From Candidatus Bipolaricaulota bacterium (GTDB lineage Bacteria > Bipolaricaulota > Bipolaricaulia > Bipolaricaulales > Bipolaricaulaceae), in assembly GCA_025060415.1 (NCBI GenBank), contig JANXBT010000002.1, forward strand, positions 372,001 through 436,000: a stretch of DNA of 64,000 nucleotides, in the 5' to 3' direction. Shown here in pieces: positions 18,771-24,777 of the stretch; the first letter of the stretch is position 1; the number at the start of each line of letters is the position of its first letter. Below the pieces are notes generated by a model that made no database searches, had not been told where the DNA came from, and was given only the letters and a program-made list of their open reading frames with translations. The translations under genes and the position numbers were made by a program.

Positions 18771-19289
18771 CTAGAGTTCGAAACCGAGCTTCAGGGCGGC
18801 GAGGTTTTCTTGCGCGGCGCGGCCGCGGCCTGCGGCCCGCACCAGCGGATCGAGCGGAAAAAGCCCGAGCTTGGCCAGGAACCCCAGAGCTGCCACGGGC
18901 GCAAGCCGCCCGGGATCGCCCGGCCGGCCCGCCGAAGCCCTTTGCACGAACGGACGGGCCTCCACGCGAAAGCCCGGGGGCACAGAATTTTTCGCGAGCG
19001 CGGCGTCCAACACCACCAAACCGCCCCGCTCCACCCAACCCATGGCCTCCGGGAACGCGCGCGGATGGAGGATCACCGCCACCTGGGCCTCTCGAAAGTA
19101 GGGGGAGAGGATGGGCTCCTCCGAGACGACGAGCTCGGAGTGAACGGGGGTCCCCATGACCTCCGCGCCGTAGGCGTAACGCAAGGCCACTTCTTTCCCT
19201 TCCTCGGCTAAGGCTTGGGCCAAGAGCCTTCCCGCGAAAACGATGCCCTGCCCGCCGATCCCGGAGATCCTGAGCCTAAGCTCCGCCAT
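18771..19289 (-). CDS. korC: 2-oxoacid:ferredoxin oxidoreductase gamma subunit
   Basis: 172-residue subunit of the CoA-dependent oxidoreductase that decarboxylates 2-oxoacids to acyl-CoA and reduces ferredoxin. The N-terminus RISGIGGQGIVFAGRLLAQAL is the family hallmark, followed by YGAEVMGTPVHSELVVSE. ATG at 19289 lies inside the 3' end of korB (14-bp overlap), indicating coupling. The C-terminal half is Arg/Gly/Pro-rich and less conserved. Typical size is 175-190 residues. Last gene of the operon. Confidence 0.93.
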   Translation of the reverse strand: MAELRLRISGIGGQGIVFAGRLLAQALAEEGKEVALRYAYGAEVMGTPVHSELVVSEEPILSPYFREAQVAVILHPRAFPEAMGWVERGGLVVLDAALAKNSVPPGFRVEARPFVQRASAGRPGDPGRLAPVAALGFLAKLGLFPLDPLVRAAGRGRAAQENLAALKLGFEL

Positions 19290-20067
19290 GGTTTTGCTCC
19301 TTGAGGGTCCGCAGGAGGCCGGGGCGGTGGCGCACCACATATTCGCCCACGGCGATCTCCTCGGGCCCGGCCTCCCCCACGGGCTTGCTTTGGGCCCGGA
19401 GCCACTTCATGGCCTCCACGGGGGCCATGGCCAACCTTCCGCCCACGCGGGCCGGGCACTGGCTCACCACCTCCACGAACCGGAATCCCTCCAGGGTCAG
19501 GGCCCGGGCGAGGGCCTTTTCCAGTTGCGGCAGATGCGCGGTGGTCCAGCGGGCCACGTAGTTGGCGCCCGCCGCGGCCACCACCTGGGCCACGTCCATG
19601 GGGTACTCCGGGTTCCCATAGGGCGTGGTGGAAGTGGGGAGGCCGTGGGGCGTGGTGGGACCCACCTGGCCCCCGGTCATGGCGTACACGAGGTTGTTGA
19701 CCATCACCACAAGGAGGTCGGCGTTGCGGCGGGCCGCGTGGAGGAGGTGGTTCCCCCCGATGCCGGCGATGTCGCCATCCCCGCCCACCACGATCACGCA
19801 AAGCTCCGGACGGCGCAGCTTAACGCCCAGGGCCGTGGGGATGGCCCGGCCGTGGGCCACATGGAGGCTATCGGCCAAAAAGTGGGGGCTGGGGATCCAG
19901 GCCGCGCAGCCGATCCCCGCCACGAACACGGTTTGCCTCAACGCAATCCCCGCTTGGGCGAGGGCCCGCAGGAGGGCCCCGGCCACGAGCCCATTCCCGC
20001 ACCCAGGGCAGAACACGGTGGGAAGCGCCTCGGGCCGCAAAAAGGCGTGCAGAGCGTGTCCCTTCAT
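19276..20067 (-). CDS. korB: 2-oxoacid:ferredoxin oxidoreductase beta subunit (thiamine diphosphate-binding)
   Basis: 263-residue catalytic subunit. CPGCGNGLVAGALL near residue 20 and GDGDIAGIGGNHLLHAARRN (GDG...NN thiamine diphosphate motif) near residue 90 are clear, followed by VVMVNNLVYAMTGGQ. The GIGCAAWIP stretch matches the OGOR class rather than pyruvate-specific POR. ATG at 20067 overlaps the korA stop (ATGA). No ferredoxin-like delta gene is adjacent, so electrons must pass to a free ferredoxin. 2-Oxoglutarate is the likeliest substrate, but branched-chain oxoacids cannot be excluded. Confidence 0.95.
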   Translation of the reverse strand: MKGHALHAFLRPEALPTVFCPGCGNGLVAGALLRALAQAGIALRQTVFVAGIGCAAWIPSPHFLADSLHVAHGRAIPTALGVKLRRPELCVIVVGGDGDIAGIGGNHLLHAARRNADLLVVMVNNLVYAMTGGQVGPTTPHGLPTSTTPYGNPEYPMDVAQVVAAAGANYVARWTTAHLPQLEKALARALTLEGFRFVEVVSQCPARVGGRLAMAPVEAMKWLRAQSKPVGEAGPEEIAVGEYVVRHRPGLLRTLKEQNHGGA

Positions 20068-21203
20068 CGCAGGATCTCCAAAATCCTCGCCGCGAGCTCC
20101 TCGGGGAAGATAGGGATCCCCCCGCCGACCTTGGGGAAGCGGAGGACGGGGCAACGGCCGGCGGCGATCCTCTCCACGTCCCACACGAGCTGGCCGAGGC
20201 TCAGCTCCGGCACGAGGACCGCGCGGGCCCGCTCCGCAAGGGCCCGGATGGGCTCCTCGGGTAGGGGCCAGAGGGTCTTGAGGACGACCACGCCCACCCG
20301 CACCCGGCCGGCGAGGATTTTCCGGGCCGCCAGGGCGCTGCGGGCCACCGAACCGTAGGCCACGACCCCCACCTCCGCCTCCTCCACGCCCACCGCCTCG
20401 TAGCGGAACAGCTCCTCCCGATTGAGCCAAATCTTCTGCCAAAGGCGCTCCACAAGCGCGCGGTGCACCTCAGGGTCGGAGGTCTGGCGCAGGCCCCAGG
20501 GGTCGTGGGTGGAGGCGGTCACGAGGAGGGCGTGGCCCTCGCCCAGGCGGGGCATGGCCGGGGGCAGGCGCGGATCCGGGGAGCCGAAGGGCGGCTCGTG
20601 GTCCCTGGGGCGCCGGCGTTCGGCGCGCTCCACCTCGCCCGGCACCCGCACGGTCTCCCAGGTGTGGGCCAAAAGCTCGTCGGAAAGGAGGACCACGGGG
20701 GTGCGCAGCCGTTCCGCAGTGTTCACGGCGAACACCGTGAGCTCGAAGCAATCCTGGACGGAGGAGGGGGCGAAGACCGGGAGGGCTTGGTCGCCGTGGC
20801 GTCCCCAGCGGGCCTGGAGGAGGTCGCCCTGGGCGGCCTTGGAGGCCTGGCCCGTGCCCGGGCCCACCCGCATCACGTCCACCACCAAAAGGGGCGTCTC
20901 CGTCATCACCGCGATCCCTAAGCCCTCCTGCATGAGGGAGAAGCCCGGGCCGCTGGTGGCCGTCATGGCCTTGGCATCGGCCCAGGAGGCCCCGATGAGC
21001 ATGAAGATCGCGGCGATCTCGTCCTCGGCCTGCAGGAAGACCCCGCCCCGCTTGGGGAGCTCGCGGGCCATGTGCTCCATGATCTCCGAGGAGGGGGTGA
21101 TGGGATAGCCCGCGTAGAAGTCCACGCCCGCGGCGAGGGCGCCCTCGGCCACGGCGATGTTGCCCGACCAGAGCCGGCGCTCAGGGCTCATCGAAGAGGC
21201 CAA
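20064..21203 (-). CDS. korA: 2-oxoacid:ferredoxin oxidoreductase alpha subunit
   Basis: 379-residue subunit with the pyrimidine-binding domain first (GYPITPSSEIMEHMARELP near residue 32, QAEDEIAAIFMLIGASWA, TATSGPGFSLMQEGLG) and the transketolase C-terminal domain after (GVVAYGSVARSALAA, LWPLPEEPIRAL, ELSLGQLVWDVERIA). Matches KorA. The start may be 21203 or the Met at 21191; neither has a strong ribosome-binding site because the gene overlaps the end of the upstream nuclease gene by 23 bp. Operon order pus10, nuclease, korA, korB, korC. Confidence 0.95.
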   Translation of the reverse strand: MASSMSPERRLWSGNIAVAEGALAAGVDFYAGYPITPSSEIMEHMARELPKRGGVFLQAEDEIAAIFMLIGASWADAKAMTATSGPGFSLMQEGLGIAVMTETPLLVVDVMRVGPGTGQASKAAQGDLLQARWGRHGDQALPVFAPSSVQDCFELTVFAVNTAERLRTPVVLLSDELLAHTWETVRVPGEVERAERRRPRDHEPPFGSPDPRLPPAMPRLGEGHALLVTASTHDPWGLRQTSDPEVHRALVERLWQKIWLNREELFRYEAVGVEEAEVGVVAYGSVARSALAARKILAGRVRVGVVVLKTLWPLPEEPIRALAERARAVLVPELSLGQLVWDVERIAAGRCPVLRFPKVGGGIPIFPEELAARILEILR

Positions 21204-21918
21204 GCCCGCGGGCGGCGCGCCCCTCGGGCAGGAGCGGGGGCTCGGCGGGGGCCTCCCCGGCGGCCGGGCGGGGGAGCGCGGCCACGTCCTCCCGACAGAA
21301 GTCCACGAACGGGCAGTACTTGCACTGGTCGAATTCCCAATCGGATTTGTCGGGAAGAGGCGGGAGCTCCCCCCGCACGAAGATGAGCTCGCGCAGGGCC
21401 TCGAACTCGGAAAGCACGCGCCGCACCGCCCCCCGGTCCAACTCCACCAGGAACTCCCGCAGCTCCTGGGTAGCCTTGTTCTCGGCCAGGAGGATCCCCT
21501 GGGGGATCTGAAAGTAGTGGAGGTAGAGCTGGAGCTGGAGGTAGTGGTCGCGCCGGGGCGCGATGGCCATCTGGTCGAAGTTGTAGGGGTGGACGGTCTT
21601 GATCTCCACCACGTAGTTCTTGCCGCCCAGGGAAATGATGGCGTCGGCCCGGCCGTGGAAGAGGGCGCCTTCAGGAATAGGGACCTCCGCAGCCACCACC
21701 AACCCTAGAGCGTAGAGGGCCTGGACGATGCGGCGGTGGGCGTCCTCGCCCACCGCGAGTTTCCGTGCGGTTTGGCCATCCAGGGGCGGCCGGGGAAAGC
21801 CCTTCACCGTGTAGAAGATCTGGCGCGGGCACTTCCCCACCTCGGAGACGTAAAAGTAATCGCGCTCGCGGTGGGGCTCCTCACGCTGGAAGTACTCCTC
21901 CAAAAGCTCGATGAGCAT
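21181..21918 (-). CDS. Cas4/RecB-like PD-(D/E)XK nuclease with Fe-S cysteines
   Basis: 245-residue single-domain nuclease. One cysteine near the N-terminus (VSEVGKC, C30) and three near the C-terminus (C199, C202, C208 in CKYCPFVDFC) form the four-cysteine Fe-S pattern of Cas4 and AddB. Nuclease residues are H61, D92 in GRAD, E105-x-K107 in VVEIKT, and Q129 in QLQLYLHYFQ. Cas4 trims DNA ends during CRISPR adaptation, but no CRISPR array or cas gene is seen here, so this is better read as a stand-alone Cas4-like repair nuclease. It lies 11 bp after pus10 and overlaps korA. The tail after residue 215 is Pro/Ala-rich. Confidence 0.88.
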   Translation of the reverse strand: MLIELLEEYFQREEPHRERDYFYVSEVGKCPRQIFYTVKGFPRPPLDGQTARKLAVGEDAHRRIVQALYALGLVVAAEVPIPEGALFHGRADAIISLGGKNYVVEIKTVHPYNFDQMAIAPRRDHYLQLQLYLHYFQIPQGILLAENKATQELREFLVELDRGAVRRVLSEFEALRELIFVRGELPPLPDKSDWEFDQCKYCPFVDFCREDVAALPRPAAGEAPAEPPLLPEGRAARGLGLFDEP

Positions 21919-21929
21919 CGTCAAGGAGT

Positions 21930-23177
21930 CTACTCCTCCGCTTCGGGCCCCACAACGCCCGCGTCGTCGAGGATATCCAGGACATCGAGTTCCGTGACCG
22001 TGGCCGCGGTGCCCAGGAGGGCGGCGAGGCTGGGCTCGGTGCCGCCCCGGTCGCCGGACACAAGCTCCTTCACGTAGAGGCCAGCTTCGCAGGTGATCTC
22101 GAGCTCGGCCTCGGTGGGGGAGAGGAGGCGGCCCTGGGCGGCGAGGACGCGGCGGCGCCGGACCAGGTCGGCCCGACGGTGCCGCACCCGCTCCGGCGTG
22201 CGCTGGCGGATCTCGCCCACCAGCCCTGCCACGGCCCGCTGAAAGGCCTCCTCCGCGACCGGCGCCGAAAAGGAGACCTTGGCCAGATAGCGCTTCGCGA
22301 ACTTCCCGGACTTCACCCGCTCCTCGAGCTCCGGGGTGGCGGGCCGAAGGTCCAAGAGCTCCACGGCGCCGAAGGTGCGGCGGCGCACCTCCTCGGCGAC
22401 CCAGGCCAAGTCGACGCGGCGGCGGCGGGGCCCCTCCACGGTGAGGAGGAAGGGCCGGCCCCGCCCCAGCATGCGGGCATCGGCGTCCTCTCGGCCCGCC
22501 CCGTGCAGATGGCCGCCCACCCCGCCCGTGGCCTCCAGAAACACCGGGAGAACGAGCTCCTCCACGGAGGCCGCGGCGAGCTTCCCCGTGCCCCCGCACG
22601 CCCCGCAGCCCCGCCCCCGGCAATGGGGACAGGTCCAGGCCGTCTGGGCGATCCCCCGCACGAGCTTCCGGTAGCGGCCGTAGAACACCGCGGGGTTCAC
22701 CTGAAGCTCGACCGCGTCCTTTTCCATGTCCACGAGGAACTGGACGTCGGGGCGGCCGTAGTCCACCTGGGCCGTGCGGCCCTCCCGCCGCAGGAGCTCC
22801 GCGAAGGCCTGGCCCAGGGCGCGGTTGAGGTGGCGGCGCACGGGCTCGGCCCAGGGCGAGGGGAACCGCTCGGCGAGGAACTCCTCGGTGGCCTCCAGGC
22901 GCGGGGAGAGGTGCACGCCGAAGAGGAAGGTGTGGAACTCGTAGGGGCGGGCGAGCTCCCAGGCCTTCTGGGCCCAGGCGGAGATGCGGGCGAAGGCGCC
23001 GCCGCACACCCAGCATTCCTCTGGGGGGACGGGGCCGAAGGCGAGGGCGGCGCGGAGGAGGGCGCCCCGTTCGGGGTTCGTGAGCCCCCCGGGGAGGAGG
23101 GCGAAGCGCCGGCCCAAACAGGGGTCGCAGATGGGGCCGGCCGCCAGAAGCTTTTCCGCCAGGGAAAGCGGATCCAC
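21930..23177 (-). CDS. pus10: tRNA pseudouridine synthase Pus10-type (position 54/55)
   Basis: About 415 residues, typical of archaeal Pus10, which converts U54 and U55 of tRNA to pseudouridine. The N-terminal zinc site uses C17, C20, C55 and C58 (CDPC, CWVC). A middle domain follows, then CPHCRGRGCGACGGTGK, and the catalytic motif GAGREDADARMLGRGRPF containing the active-site Asp. The C-terminal EAGLYVKELVSGDRG matches the family. The frame is open to 23258, but that would run into tRNA-Pro and its promoter, so GTG at 23177 is preferred; no strong ribosome-binding site supports it. Bacteria normally use TruB for U55; Pus10 is essentially archaeal/eukaryotic, so this is a candidate transfer or a rare bacterial branch. 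Confidence 0.92.
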   Translation of the reverse strand: MDPLSLAEKLLAAGPICDPCLGRRFALLPGGLTNPERGALLRAALAFGPVPPEECWVCGGAFARISAWAQKAWELARPYEFHTFLFGVHLSPRLEATEEFLAERFPSPWAEPVRRHLNRALGQAFAELLRREGRTAQVDYGRPDVQFLVDMEKDAVELQVNPAVFYGRYRKLVRGIAQTAWTCPHCRGRGCGACGGTGKLAAASVEELVLPVFLEATGGVGGHLHGAGREDADARMLGRGRPFLLTVEGPRRRRVDLAWVAEEVRRRTFGAVELLDLRPATPELEERVKSGKFAKRYLAKVSFSAPVAEEAFQRAVAGLVGEIRQRTPERVRHRRADLVRRRRVLAAQGRLLSPTEAELEITCEAGLYVKELVSGDRGGTEPSLAALLGTAATVTELDVLDILDDAGVVGPEAEE

Positions 23178-23230: not shown

Positions 23231-23307
<77 letters not shown>

Positions 23308-23331: not shown

Positions 23332-24777
23332 ATGGAAAAGCTTGTGGGCTTGGCGCTGAGCGTGCTTAGGGACCTGGGCGCGGAGTTCGGGGAAGTGCGG
23401 GTGGAGCGCAGGGTCGACGAGAGCCTCCGCACCAAGAACCTCGAGGTGGAGGTCCTCTCCCGCAGGGAGTCCGCGGGGATTGGGATCCGCGTGCTGTACA
23501 AGGGCGCGTGGGGCTTCGCCGCCACCGGCGACCTCTCCGAGGGCGGGGTGCGCCGGGCGGCGGAGCAGGCTCTGGCCATCGCCCGGGCCTCCGCAAGCCT
23601 CCTCCGGGAGCCGGTGCGGCTGGCCCCGGAGCCCGCGCACCGCGGGACCTACGTGACCCCGGTGAAGAAGGATCCCTTGGCCGTTCCCATCCAGGACAAG
23701 CTGGCCCTCCTCTTTGCGGCCGCGGAGCGGATCCTCAGGGTCCCCGGGGTCCTCATGGCCAAGGGGAGCCTGGCGGCCTGGCGCATCGAGAAGTGGTTCG
23801 GCAACACGGAAGGCAGCGAAATCCACCAGGTGATCACCAGCTGCGGGGCGGGGATCGAGGCCTACGCGGCCAAGCCCGGGGAGATGCAAAAAAGGAGCTT
23901 CCCCAACTCCTTCGGCGGGGATTTCGCCAACGCCGGCTACGAGTTCATCGAGTCCCTGGGCCTTGTGGAGAACGCCGAGCGCATCGGGGAGGAGGCCGTG
24001 GCCCTGCTTTCCGCGCCGGTCTGCCCCACCGGCGTGTTCGACGTGATCATCGATGGCTCCCAGATGGCCCTCCAGGTGCACGAGTCCCTGGGGCACCCGG
24101 CGGAGCTGGACCGGGTGCTGGGGACGGAGCTCTCCTACGCGGGCGGGAGCTTCCTCACCCTGGAGAAGCGCGGGAACTTCCGGTACGGCTCGGAGATCGT
24201 GAACATCGTGGCCGATGCCACCGCGCCCGGAGGCCTGGGCACCTTCGGCTACGACGACGAGGGCGTGGAAGCCCAGCGCGTGGATCTGGTGCGGGAGGGG
24301 GTCTTCGTGGGCTACCTCACCTCCCGGGAGACCGCGGGGAAGCTGGGCCTGCCGCGGAGCAGCGGCGCGGCCCGGGCCTCAAGCTGGGCGCGCATCCCCC
24401 TAGTGCGCATGACCAACATCAACCTCCTCCCCGGGAAAGGGCGGCTCGCCGACCTCCTTGCGGACACGGAGCACGGGATCTACTTTGAGACCAACAAATC
24501 CTGGTCCATCGACGATCGGCGCGTGAACTTCCAATTCGGCACGGAGATCGCCTGGGAGATCCGGAACGGGAAAAAGGTGCGGATGCTCAAGAACGCCCTC
24601 TATACCGGGATCACCCCGCAGTTTTGGGGGTCCTGTGTGGCCATTGCGGGGCCGGAGGAGTGGCGGCTTTGGGGGCTGCCCAACTGCGGGAAGGGCGAGC
24701 CGGGCCAGGTGATGCAGGTGGGCCACGGCGCGGCGCCCGCCAAGTTCACGAACGTCCAGGTGAGGGGGGCGGCATGA
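23332..24777 (+). CDS. tldD: TldD/PmbA-family metalloprotease, TldD type
   Basis: 481-residue protein. The zinc motif HESLGHPAELDR (HExxxH) is near residue 250, which marks the catalytic TldD rather than the TldE/PmbA partner. The C-terminal barrel includes RMTNINLLPGKG and FETNKSWSIDDRRVNFQFG. TldD/TldE process small peptides such as microcins and CcdA. A TldE gene is not adjacent here. ATG at 23332 follows GGAGCGGGA, 25 bp after tRNA-Pro. The stop overlaps the next gene by 4 bp. Confidence 0.95.
   Translation: MEKLVGLALSVLRDLGAEFGEVRVERRVDESLRTKNLEVEVLSRRESAGIGIRVLYKGAWGFAATGDLSEGGVRRAAEQALAIARASASLLREPVRLAPEPAHRGTYVTPVKKDPLAVPIQDKLALLFAAAERILRVPGVLMAKGSLAAWRIEKWFGNTEGSEIHQVITSCGAGIEAYAAKPGEMQKRSFPNSFGGDFANAGYEFIESLGLVENAERIGEEAVALLSAPVCPTGVFDVIIDGSQMALQVHESLGHPAELDRVLGTELSYAGGSFLTLEKRGNFRYGSEIVNIVADATAPGGLGTFGYDDEGVEAQRVDLVREGVFVGYLTSRETAGKLGLPRSSGAARASSWARIPLVRMTNINLLPGKGRLADLLADTEHGIYFETNKSWSIDDRRVNFQFGTEIAWEIRNGKKVRMLKNALYTGITPQFWGSCVAIAGPEEWRLWGLPNCGKGEPGQVMQVGHGAAPAKFTNVQVRGAA

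Follow-up and report, generated by a model that had tools for sequence, protein, structure and literature searches.

Known routes to the modifications at positions 54 and 55

Pseudouridine at position 55 (Psi55) is among the most conserved marks of tRNA. The isomerization of U55 is carried out by TruB, Pus4 and Cbf5 as well as by Pus10, the former three belonging to a different Pfam family from the latter. The open literature assigns Psi55 to TruB in bacteria and to Pus10 in archaea, and one review states that Pus10 does not occur in Bacteria (PMC7912444). The same review describes two archaeal arrangements. That is, Pus10 of M. jannaschii makes both Psi54 and Psi55, and Pus10 of P. furiosus makes only Psi55, with m5U54 being supplied there by a SAM-dependent enzyme (PMC7912444). 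Psi54 can be methylated to m1Psi54 by TrmY, which, according to an excerpt of PMC9508554, acts only on tRNA that has first been pseudouridylated by Pus10.

The pus10 gene described here lies in the window, by which we mean the whole stretch of 64,000 nucleotides that was analysed. The host is a member of Bipolaricaulota, a deep-branching bacterial phylum with the older name OP1; its genome, assembled in 35 contigs, amounts to 1.35 Mb and is 91% complete. We favour, with a probability of roughly 0.78, the reading that Pus10 is the T-loop pseudouridine synthase of these bacteria, and that it displaced TruB in the phylum's ancestor, a single ancient transfer being the most likely route, with vertical inheritance ever since. 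To our knowledge, the combination of Pus10 with TrmFO, as encountered in the window's genus, has not been described. No report of Pus10 in Bipolaricaulota or Acetothermia was found in the open PMC literature, an earlier mention in other papers on Pus10 evolution or loops being possible; the one article on Bipolaricaulota that touches on pseudouridine (PMC12641178, on ribosome biogenesis) does not use the word 'TruB' in its main text. What is new here is thus the bacterial host and the replacement of TruB, the Pus10 family itself being known.

A full-length Pus10 protein

The protein encoded by the window pus10 gene (Table 1) matched the model for tRNA Psi54/55 synthase Pus10 (TIGR01213) with 419.4 bits (E 1.4e-125), to be compared with a curated equivalog cut-off of 200 bits. 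The match was full-length, covering residues 7-402 of the protein and positions 3-401 of the 402-position profile. Pfam likewise identified Pus10_THUMP_arc (PF22023; 56 bits, residues 68-150) and Pus10_C (PF21238; 181 bits, residues 166-402), that is, a THUMP-containing N-terminal domain fused to the Psi-synthase domain, in agreement with the matches of the structural model to 2v9k. This model, obtained with AlphaFold2 from a 35-row alignment, had a mean pLDDT of 93.7, and its top structural match in the PDB was human PUS10 (2v9k; E 3.4e-31, TM 0.77 by query length), which was also the only PDB entry matched by sequence up to an E-value of 0.001. Identity between the human and window proteins was 21% over the structural alignment. 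Human PUS10 differs, however, in having a larger accessory domain and in working beside TRUB1, as described in passages of a review (PMC9957541).

The preliminary description had recognized Pus10 by its cysteine motifs and by an EDADARMLG active site, and both features withstood closer analysis together with the profile match. Paired cysteines are located at C17/C20, C55/C58 and 183/186/191/194, and the active site reads GREDADARMLG where most relatives have GREDIDARMLG or GREDVDARMLG. The column of the presumed catalytic aspartate, D231, is the same in every row of both the 22-row and the 35-row alignments, and Y297 and L397 are retained as well. Archaeal Pus10 (TIGR01213, COG1258; M. jannaschii, P. 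furiosus) shares the full-length match, the THUMP domain, the paired cysteines and the GRED motif with the window protein, which is 41-47% identical to 22 methanogen and haloarchaeal rows and 84% identical to Pus10 of a second genome of its own genus. By all sequence tests run, the window protein belongs to the Pus10 family, whose characteristic activity is the formation of Psi55 (and Psi54) in tRNA.

Table 1. Features of the pus10 region, in window coordinates.
Feature	Position	Strand	Remarks
2-oxoacid:ferredoxin oxidoreductase gamma-type subunit	18771..19286	minus	putative start; Pfam POR 79 bits
2-oxoacid:ferredoxin oxidoreductase TPP-binding subunit	19276..20106	minus	putative start; Pfam TPP_enzyme_C 114 bits
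2-oxoacid:ferredoxin oxidoreductase alpha-type subunit	20064..21191	minus	Pfam POR_N 211 bits; overlaps end of nuclease gene
Cas4-like PD-(D/E)XK nuclease	21181..21918	minus	starts about 11 bases past pus10 stop; Pfam PDDEXK_1 28 bits on shorter ORF 21181-21747; PADLOC Cas4 36.5 bits
pus10	21930..23177	minus	415 aa, from a GTG start codon at 23177 to a stop codon whose last base is 21930; archaeal-type tRNA pseudouridine-54/55 synthase
pus10 codon 246	22440..22442	minus	Thr in window (E246T/S/K), specific to window's genus; Glu in 137/138 other rows
pus10 codon 231 (D231)	22485..22487	minus	conserved Asp within GRED, by its position the catalytic residue; invariant alignment column
pus10 codon 201	22575..22577	minus	Ala in window (Y201A/S), specific to window's genus; Tyr in 138/138 other rows
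pus10 codon 177	22647..22649	minus	P177A, specific to window's genus; Pro in 138/138 other rows
tRNA-Pro(TGG)	23231..23307	plus	ARAGORN; divergent from pus10, 53 bases away; T-loop UUCAAAU with U54, U55
TldD/PmbA-type metallopeptidase	23332..24777	plus	downstream of tRNA gene; Pfam PmbA_TldD domains

Distribution of Pus10 and TruB

Searches covered 100 Bipolaricaulota genomes from 39 genera, 38 of the genomes being of good quality, and a second sample of 291 genomes composed of the same 100 and 191 other bacteria. Pus10 was present in 85 of the 100 Bipolaricaulota genomes (82 over the cut-off), including 35 of the 38 good genomes and 36 of the 39 genera, and it was not found in any of the 191 other bacterial genomes. 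Among 14 control genomes, the family occurred in archaea only. TruB_N gave the complementary picture: no match in any of the 100 Bipolaricaulota genomes, as opposed to matches in 178 of the 191 other bacteria and in all 14 controls. The TruB_N proteins of the four archaeal control genomes are Cbf5. The model thus reaches the archaeal enzyme too, and no Cbf5 was seen among the 100 genomes either. The complementary distributions of the two enzymes suggest that Pus10 replaces TruB phylum-wide, a reading that is well supported. The idea put forward in the preliminary description, that of an archaeal/eukaryotic-type Pus10 residing in a true bacterium, has therefore gained in breadth, as the host belongs to Bipolaricaulota and most of its relatives carry the gene as well.

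Fifteen of the 100 genomes gave no Pus10 match, three good ones (G007, G054 and G083) among them; 12 of the 15 carry TrmY, making assembly gaps the likely reason there. TruA (PF01416) failed as a positive control for the absence searches, being itself recorded in only 3 of the 100 genomes, and RluA/RsuA-type synthases (PF00849) were taken instead. The latter were detected in 96 of the 100 Bipolaricaulota genomes and in all 38 good ones, often in two or three copies per genome, with one match in the window genome. TruA itself seems to be absent phylum-wide: its three matches were weak and lay inside ORFs of about 1060 aa, compared with matches in 12 of the 14 controls. Moreover, Trm56 was not found in any of the 100 Bipolaricaulota genomes, so that only the 54/55 part of the archaeal T-loop set is common to the phylum, and the notion of a wider archaeal T-loop enzyme set was rejected.

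The occurrence of the archaeal enzyme in place of TruB throughout a bacterial phylum suggests that TruB and Pus10 are exchangeable in a bacterial cell. On the practical side, annotation pipelines in which truB belongs to the bacterial core set will assess Bipolaricaulota genomes wrongly.

Age and origin of the gene

A tree, without a root outside the archaea, was built from 82 of 145 aligned Pus10 rows (7 from the window's genus, 41 from other Bipolaricaulota and 34 from archaea). All 48 Bipolaricaulota rows fell on one side of a branch with a support of 95/94 and the 34 archaeal rows on the other side. Within the phylum, families f1, f2, f4, f6 and f9 each grouped together. Pus10 therefore appears to be old in the phylum and to have been inherited vertically.

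The preliminary description had offered two origins for the gene, namely transfer from archaea or old retention. Under the second, Pus10 would date back to the last ancestor shared by archaea and bacteria and would have been lost in all other bacteria. The grouping of the phylum's rows opposite the archaea, in keeping with its families, does speak for great age. Retention would, however, demand a loss in every other lineage, at odds with a bacterial sample in which Pus10 was found in 0 of 191 genomes and TruB in 178; furthermore, TrmY, which depends on Pus10, is likewise shared with archaea. We consider retention unlikely. One ancient transfer is favoured as the simplest reading of the 0/191 count and of the single group facing the archaea. 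Named-sequence matches to Pus10 comprised at least 80 loci, 12 of them assigned to Bipolaricaulota, Acetothermia or Bipolaricaulis and 68 to archaea; these 68 were the best of a longer list, and all belong to methanogens, their relatives or haloarchaea. A single transfer into the Bipolaricaulota ancestor from a euryarchaeal-type donor is hence the most likely origin, in a tree that is unrooted outside the archaea and whose archaeal rows are limited to the best matches listed. Of the two origins offered, transfer is the one favoured.

The occurrence of the family in archaea only among the 14 control genomes could also bring to mind an archaeal sequence misassigned to a bacterial bin, i.e. an artefact of binning or contamination. 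Against this, the window pus10 gene sits on a contig of 531,269 bases (G000:C22), the family is present in 85 of 100 genomes and its tree is congruent with the families of the phylum, the flanks of the gene are conserved within the genus, and the second genus member carries a homologue that is 84% identical. Contamination was rejected on these grounds and is, in our estimation, next to impossible. As for carriage of Pus10 by viruses, one alignment-based scan of viral contigs returned 44 pattern matches, with no relative among them.

Partner enzymes at position 54

The archaeal methyltransferase TrmY (PF04013) was present in 79 of the 100 Bipolaricaulota genomes and in 35 of the 38 good ones; the single member tested (L035) passed the NCBIfam equivalog NF002560 with 227 bits against a cut-off of 183. 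TrmY was missing from the window's genus (0 of 8 genomes), from family f2 (0 of 6) and from 7 of the remaining 86 genomes. Because TrmY requires a pseudouridine made by Pus10, its presence implies Psi54. Pus10 would isomerize U55 of tRNAs and, in most of the phylum, U54 too, and TrmY would then methylate the resulting Psi54, so that a bacterium would end up with the m1Psi54-Psi55 T-loop of archaea. Judging from this gene content, those members of the phylum that carry TrmY probably make both Psi54 and m1Psi54. The reading predicts, in other words, the m1Psi54 nucleoside in bacterial tRNA.

TrmFO is the bacterial folate/FAD-dependent enzyme that makes m5U54. Over the cut-off, it was detected in seven of the eight genomes that represent the window's genus and in none of the other 92. 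The window genome's TrmFO scored 616 bits with NF003739 (cut-off 262) and 608 bits with TIGR00137, compared with 85 bits for the MnmG model. TrmA/RlmD-type enzymes (PF05958) were over the cut-off in none of the 100 Bipolaricaulota genomes. The presence or absence of TruB, TrmFO and TrmA, which the preliminary description had proposed to check, thus sets the window's genus apart through TrmFO only. Like P. furiosus, members of this genus combine Pus10 with an m5U54 enzyme and have no TrmY; in P. furiosus, however, that enzyme is SAM-dependent, whereas here it is the folate/FAD-dependent bacterial TrmFO. Compared with archaeal Pus10, then, the window's enzyme is bacterial, is changed at P177, Y201 and E246, and has as its partner TrmFO rather than TrmY or a SAM-dependent m5U54 enzyme.

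In the lineage of the window's genus, TrmY would have been lost and TrmFO gained. TrmFO would there methylate U54, and Pus10, narrowed to Psi55 only, would complete an m5U54-Psi55 T-loop by a hybrid route. The narrowing is inferred from the fact that TrmFO and Pus10 would otherwise compete for U54. Restriction of Pus10 to U55 in this genus is a hypothesis to which we give about even odds, with a slight leaning in its favour.

An alternative would be that Psi55 comes from an RluA/RsuA-type synthase replacing TruB, Pus10 serving only U54 or some other RNA. Such synthases are indeed widespread in the phylum (96 of 100 genomes), often with two or three copies, but the window genome has a single PF00849 match, which is what we would expect for the usual 23S rRNA site. 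Pus10 has, besides, been kept in 7 of the 8 genomes of the genus, with 73 of its 77 most conserved positions unchanged, and a Pus10 acting on U54 only would have no job where U54 is claimed by TrmFO. This alternative is improbable in our judgement, and Pus10 very probably supplies Psi55 in the window bacterium, as far as gene content can tell.

The TrmFO gene of the window's genus (L033:1486-2799; G000:C22, about 159316-160629) starts within about 15 bases of a tRNA gene (G000:C22:160645-160717) that is read in the same direction. A position next to a tRNA gene is a common setting for acquired DNA.

Family f2 (G040-G045) constitutes a further combination: no TrmY (0 of 6 genomes), TrmFO or TrmA-type enzyme was found over the cut-off in these genomes, which encode five Pus10 genes plus one fragment. 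The scheme proposed here does not account for position 54 in f2, a point that counts against it. One of these f2 proteins (L062) is without the CxxC..CxxC loop.

Altered positions in Pus10 of the window's genus

Conservation was examined in an alignment of 7 rows from the window's genus, 70 rows from other Bipolaricaulota (about 60 distinct genomes, 10 genomes occurring twice) and 68 archaeal rows. Seventy-seven columns were at least 90% conserved for the same residue in both the other Bipolaricaulota and the archaea, and the window's genus keeps 73 of the 77. P177, Y201 and E246 (Table 1) are altered throughout the genus, and N265, conserved in 129 of the 138 other rows, is changed in it as well. 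When 14 clades were compared at sites 95% conserved in the rest of the alignment, with the same genomes counted twice, the window's genus had three changed sites, as against none in 11 of the other clades and one in two. Family f2 Pus10, for its part, keeps Tyr201. In the predicted model, the strand at residues 163-171 and the helix at 205-217 are joined by the cysteine-bearing loop, which has P177 and Y201 on either side of it and lies ahead of the catalytic aspartate.

The stem branch leading to the genus was long in the Pus10 tree (0.42), compared with 0.18 in a tree of RluA from the same 30 genomes, whereas the median end branch was 0.17 in Pus10 versus 0.26 in RluA. Judged by this one control gene, in which the long stem is absent, the burst of change was confined to Pus10.

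We take the thumb loop of the window Pus10 to lie in the stretch QRTPxRVxHRRADLVR. This loop and the N-terminal cysteines look intact, with P177, Y201 and E246 lying elsewhere. A review (PMC9957541) names these two elements as determining Psi54 activity, and their preservation speaks against a loss of that activity in the window's genus. Human PUS10, which is able to make Psi54, is also without Tyr at the position aligned with Y201, and this too counts against a shift in specificity.

The changes in Pus10 of the genus might accordingly reflect drift, composition or adaptation to heat instead of a change of target. In addition to the intact determinants, the long stems found elsewhere in the Pus10 tree, for instance that of f2, are consistent with such causes. 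RluA of the same genomes is nonetheless devoid of a comparable stem (0.18 vs 0.42), and the three sites are near-invariant both in archaea and among the other Bipolaricaulota, no other tested clade being changed at more than one. We regard drift, composition or heat as a real possibility, if a tentative one.

With a change of target, the observations could be joined as follows. T-loop chemistry would be archaeal phylum-wide, with m1Psi54-Psi55 formed by Pus10 and TrmY and with neither TruB nor T54. The window's genus would then have rebuilt the bacterial T54-Psi55 loop when it took in TrmFO and lost TrmY, and the U54/U55 enzyme Pus10 would have turned U55-only there via the changes at the P177-Y201 loop and E246. 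The chances that this whole sequence is right or wrong are, in our view, evenly balanced. If it is right, nature would have run once more the process by which enzymes come to share out position 54, and the enzyme swap in the genus offers a natural test of what decides whether Pus10 touches U54.

Gene neighbourhood and tRNA substrates

The preliminary description placed pus10 upstream of metabolic genes and divergent from a tRNA gene, and the annotation agrees on both points: the gene is followed on the same strand by the Cas4-like nuclease and then by the three 2-oxoacid:ferredoxin oxidoreductase subunits, and it faces away from tRNA-Pro(TGG) on the plus strand (Table 1). A Cas4-like nuclease was found near pus10 in 12 of 76 pus10 loci, all of the same family, and the POR_N subunit at six of these loci, all from the window's genus. 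An operon with functional meaning was rejected; the neighbours being conserved near pus10 only within the genus or family, we claim no functional link for them.

The presumed substrates are uniform in the window genome, in that U54 and U55 are present in all 46 distinct tRNA genes checked, 46 also being the number given by an Rfam search. For genome G005, in which 38 tRNA genes were checked compared with 45 in the Rfam search, tRNA-Gly(GCC) has the T-loop AUCGAAU, that is, A54 in place of U54, and it was the only such case among the 38.
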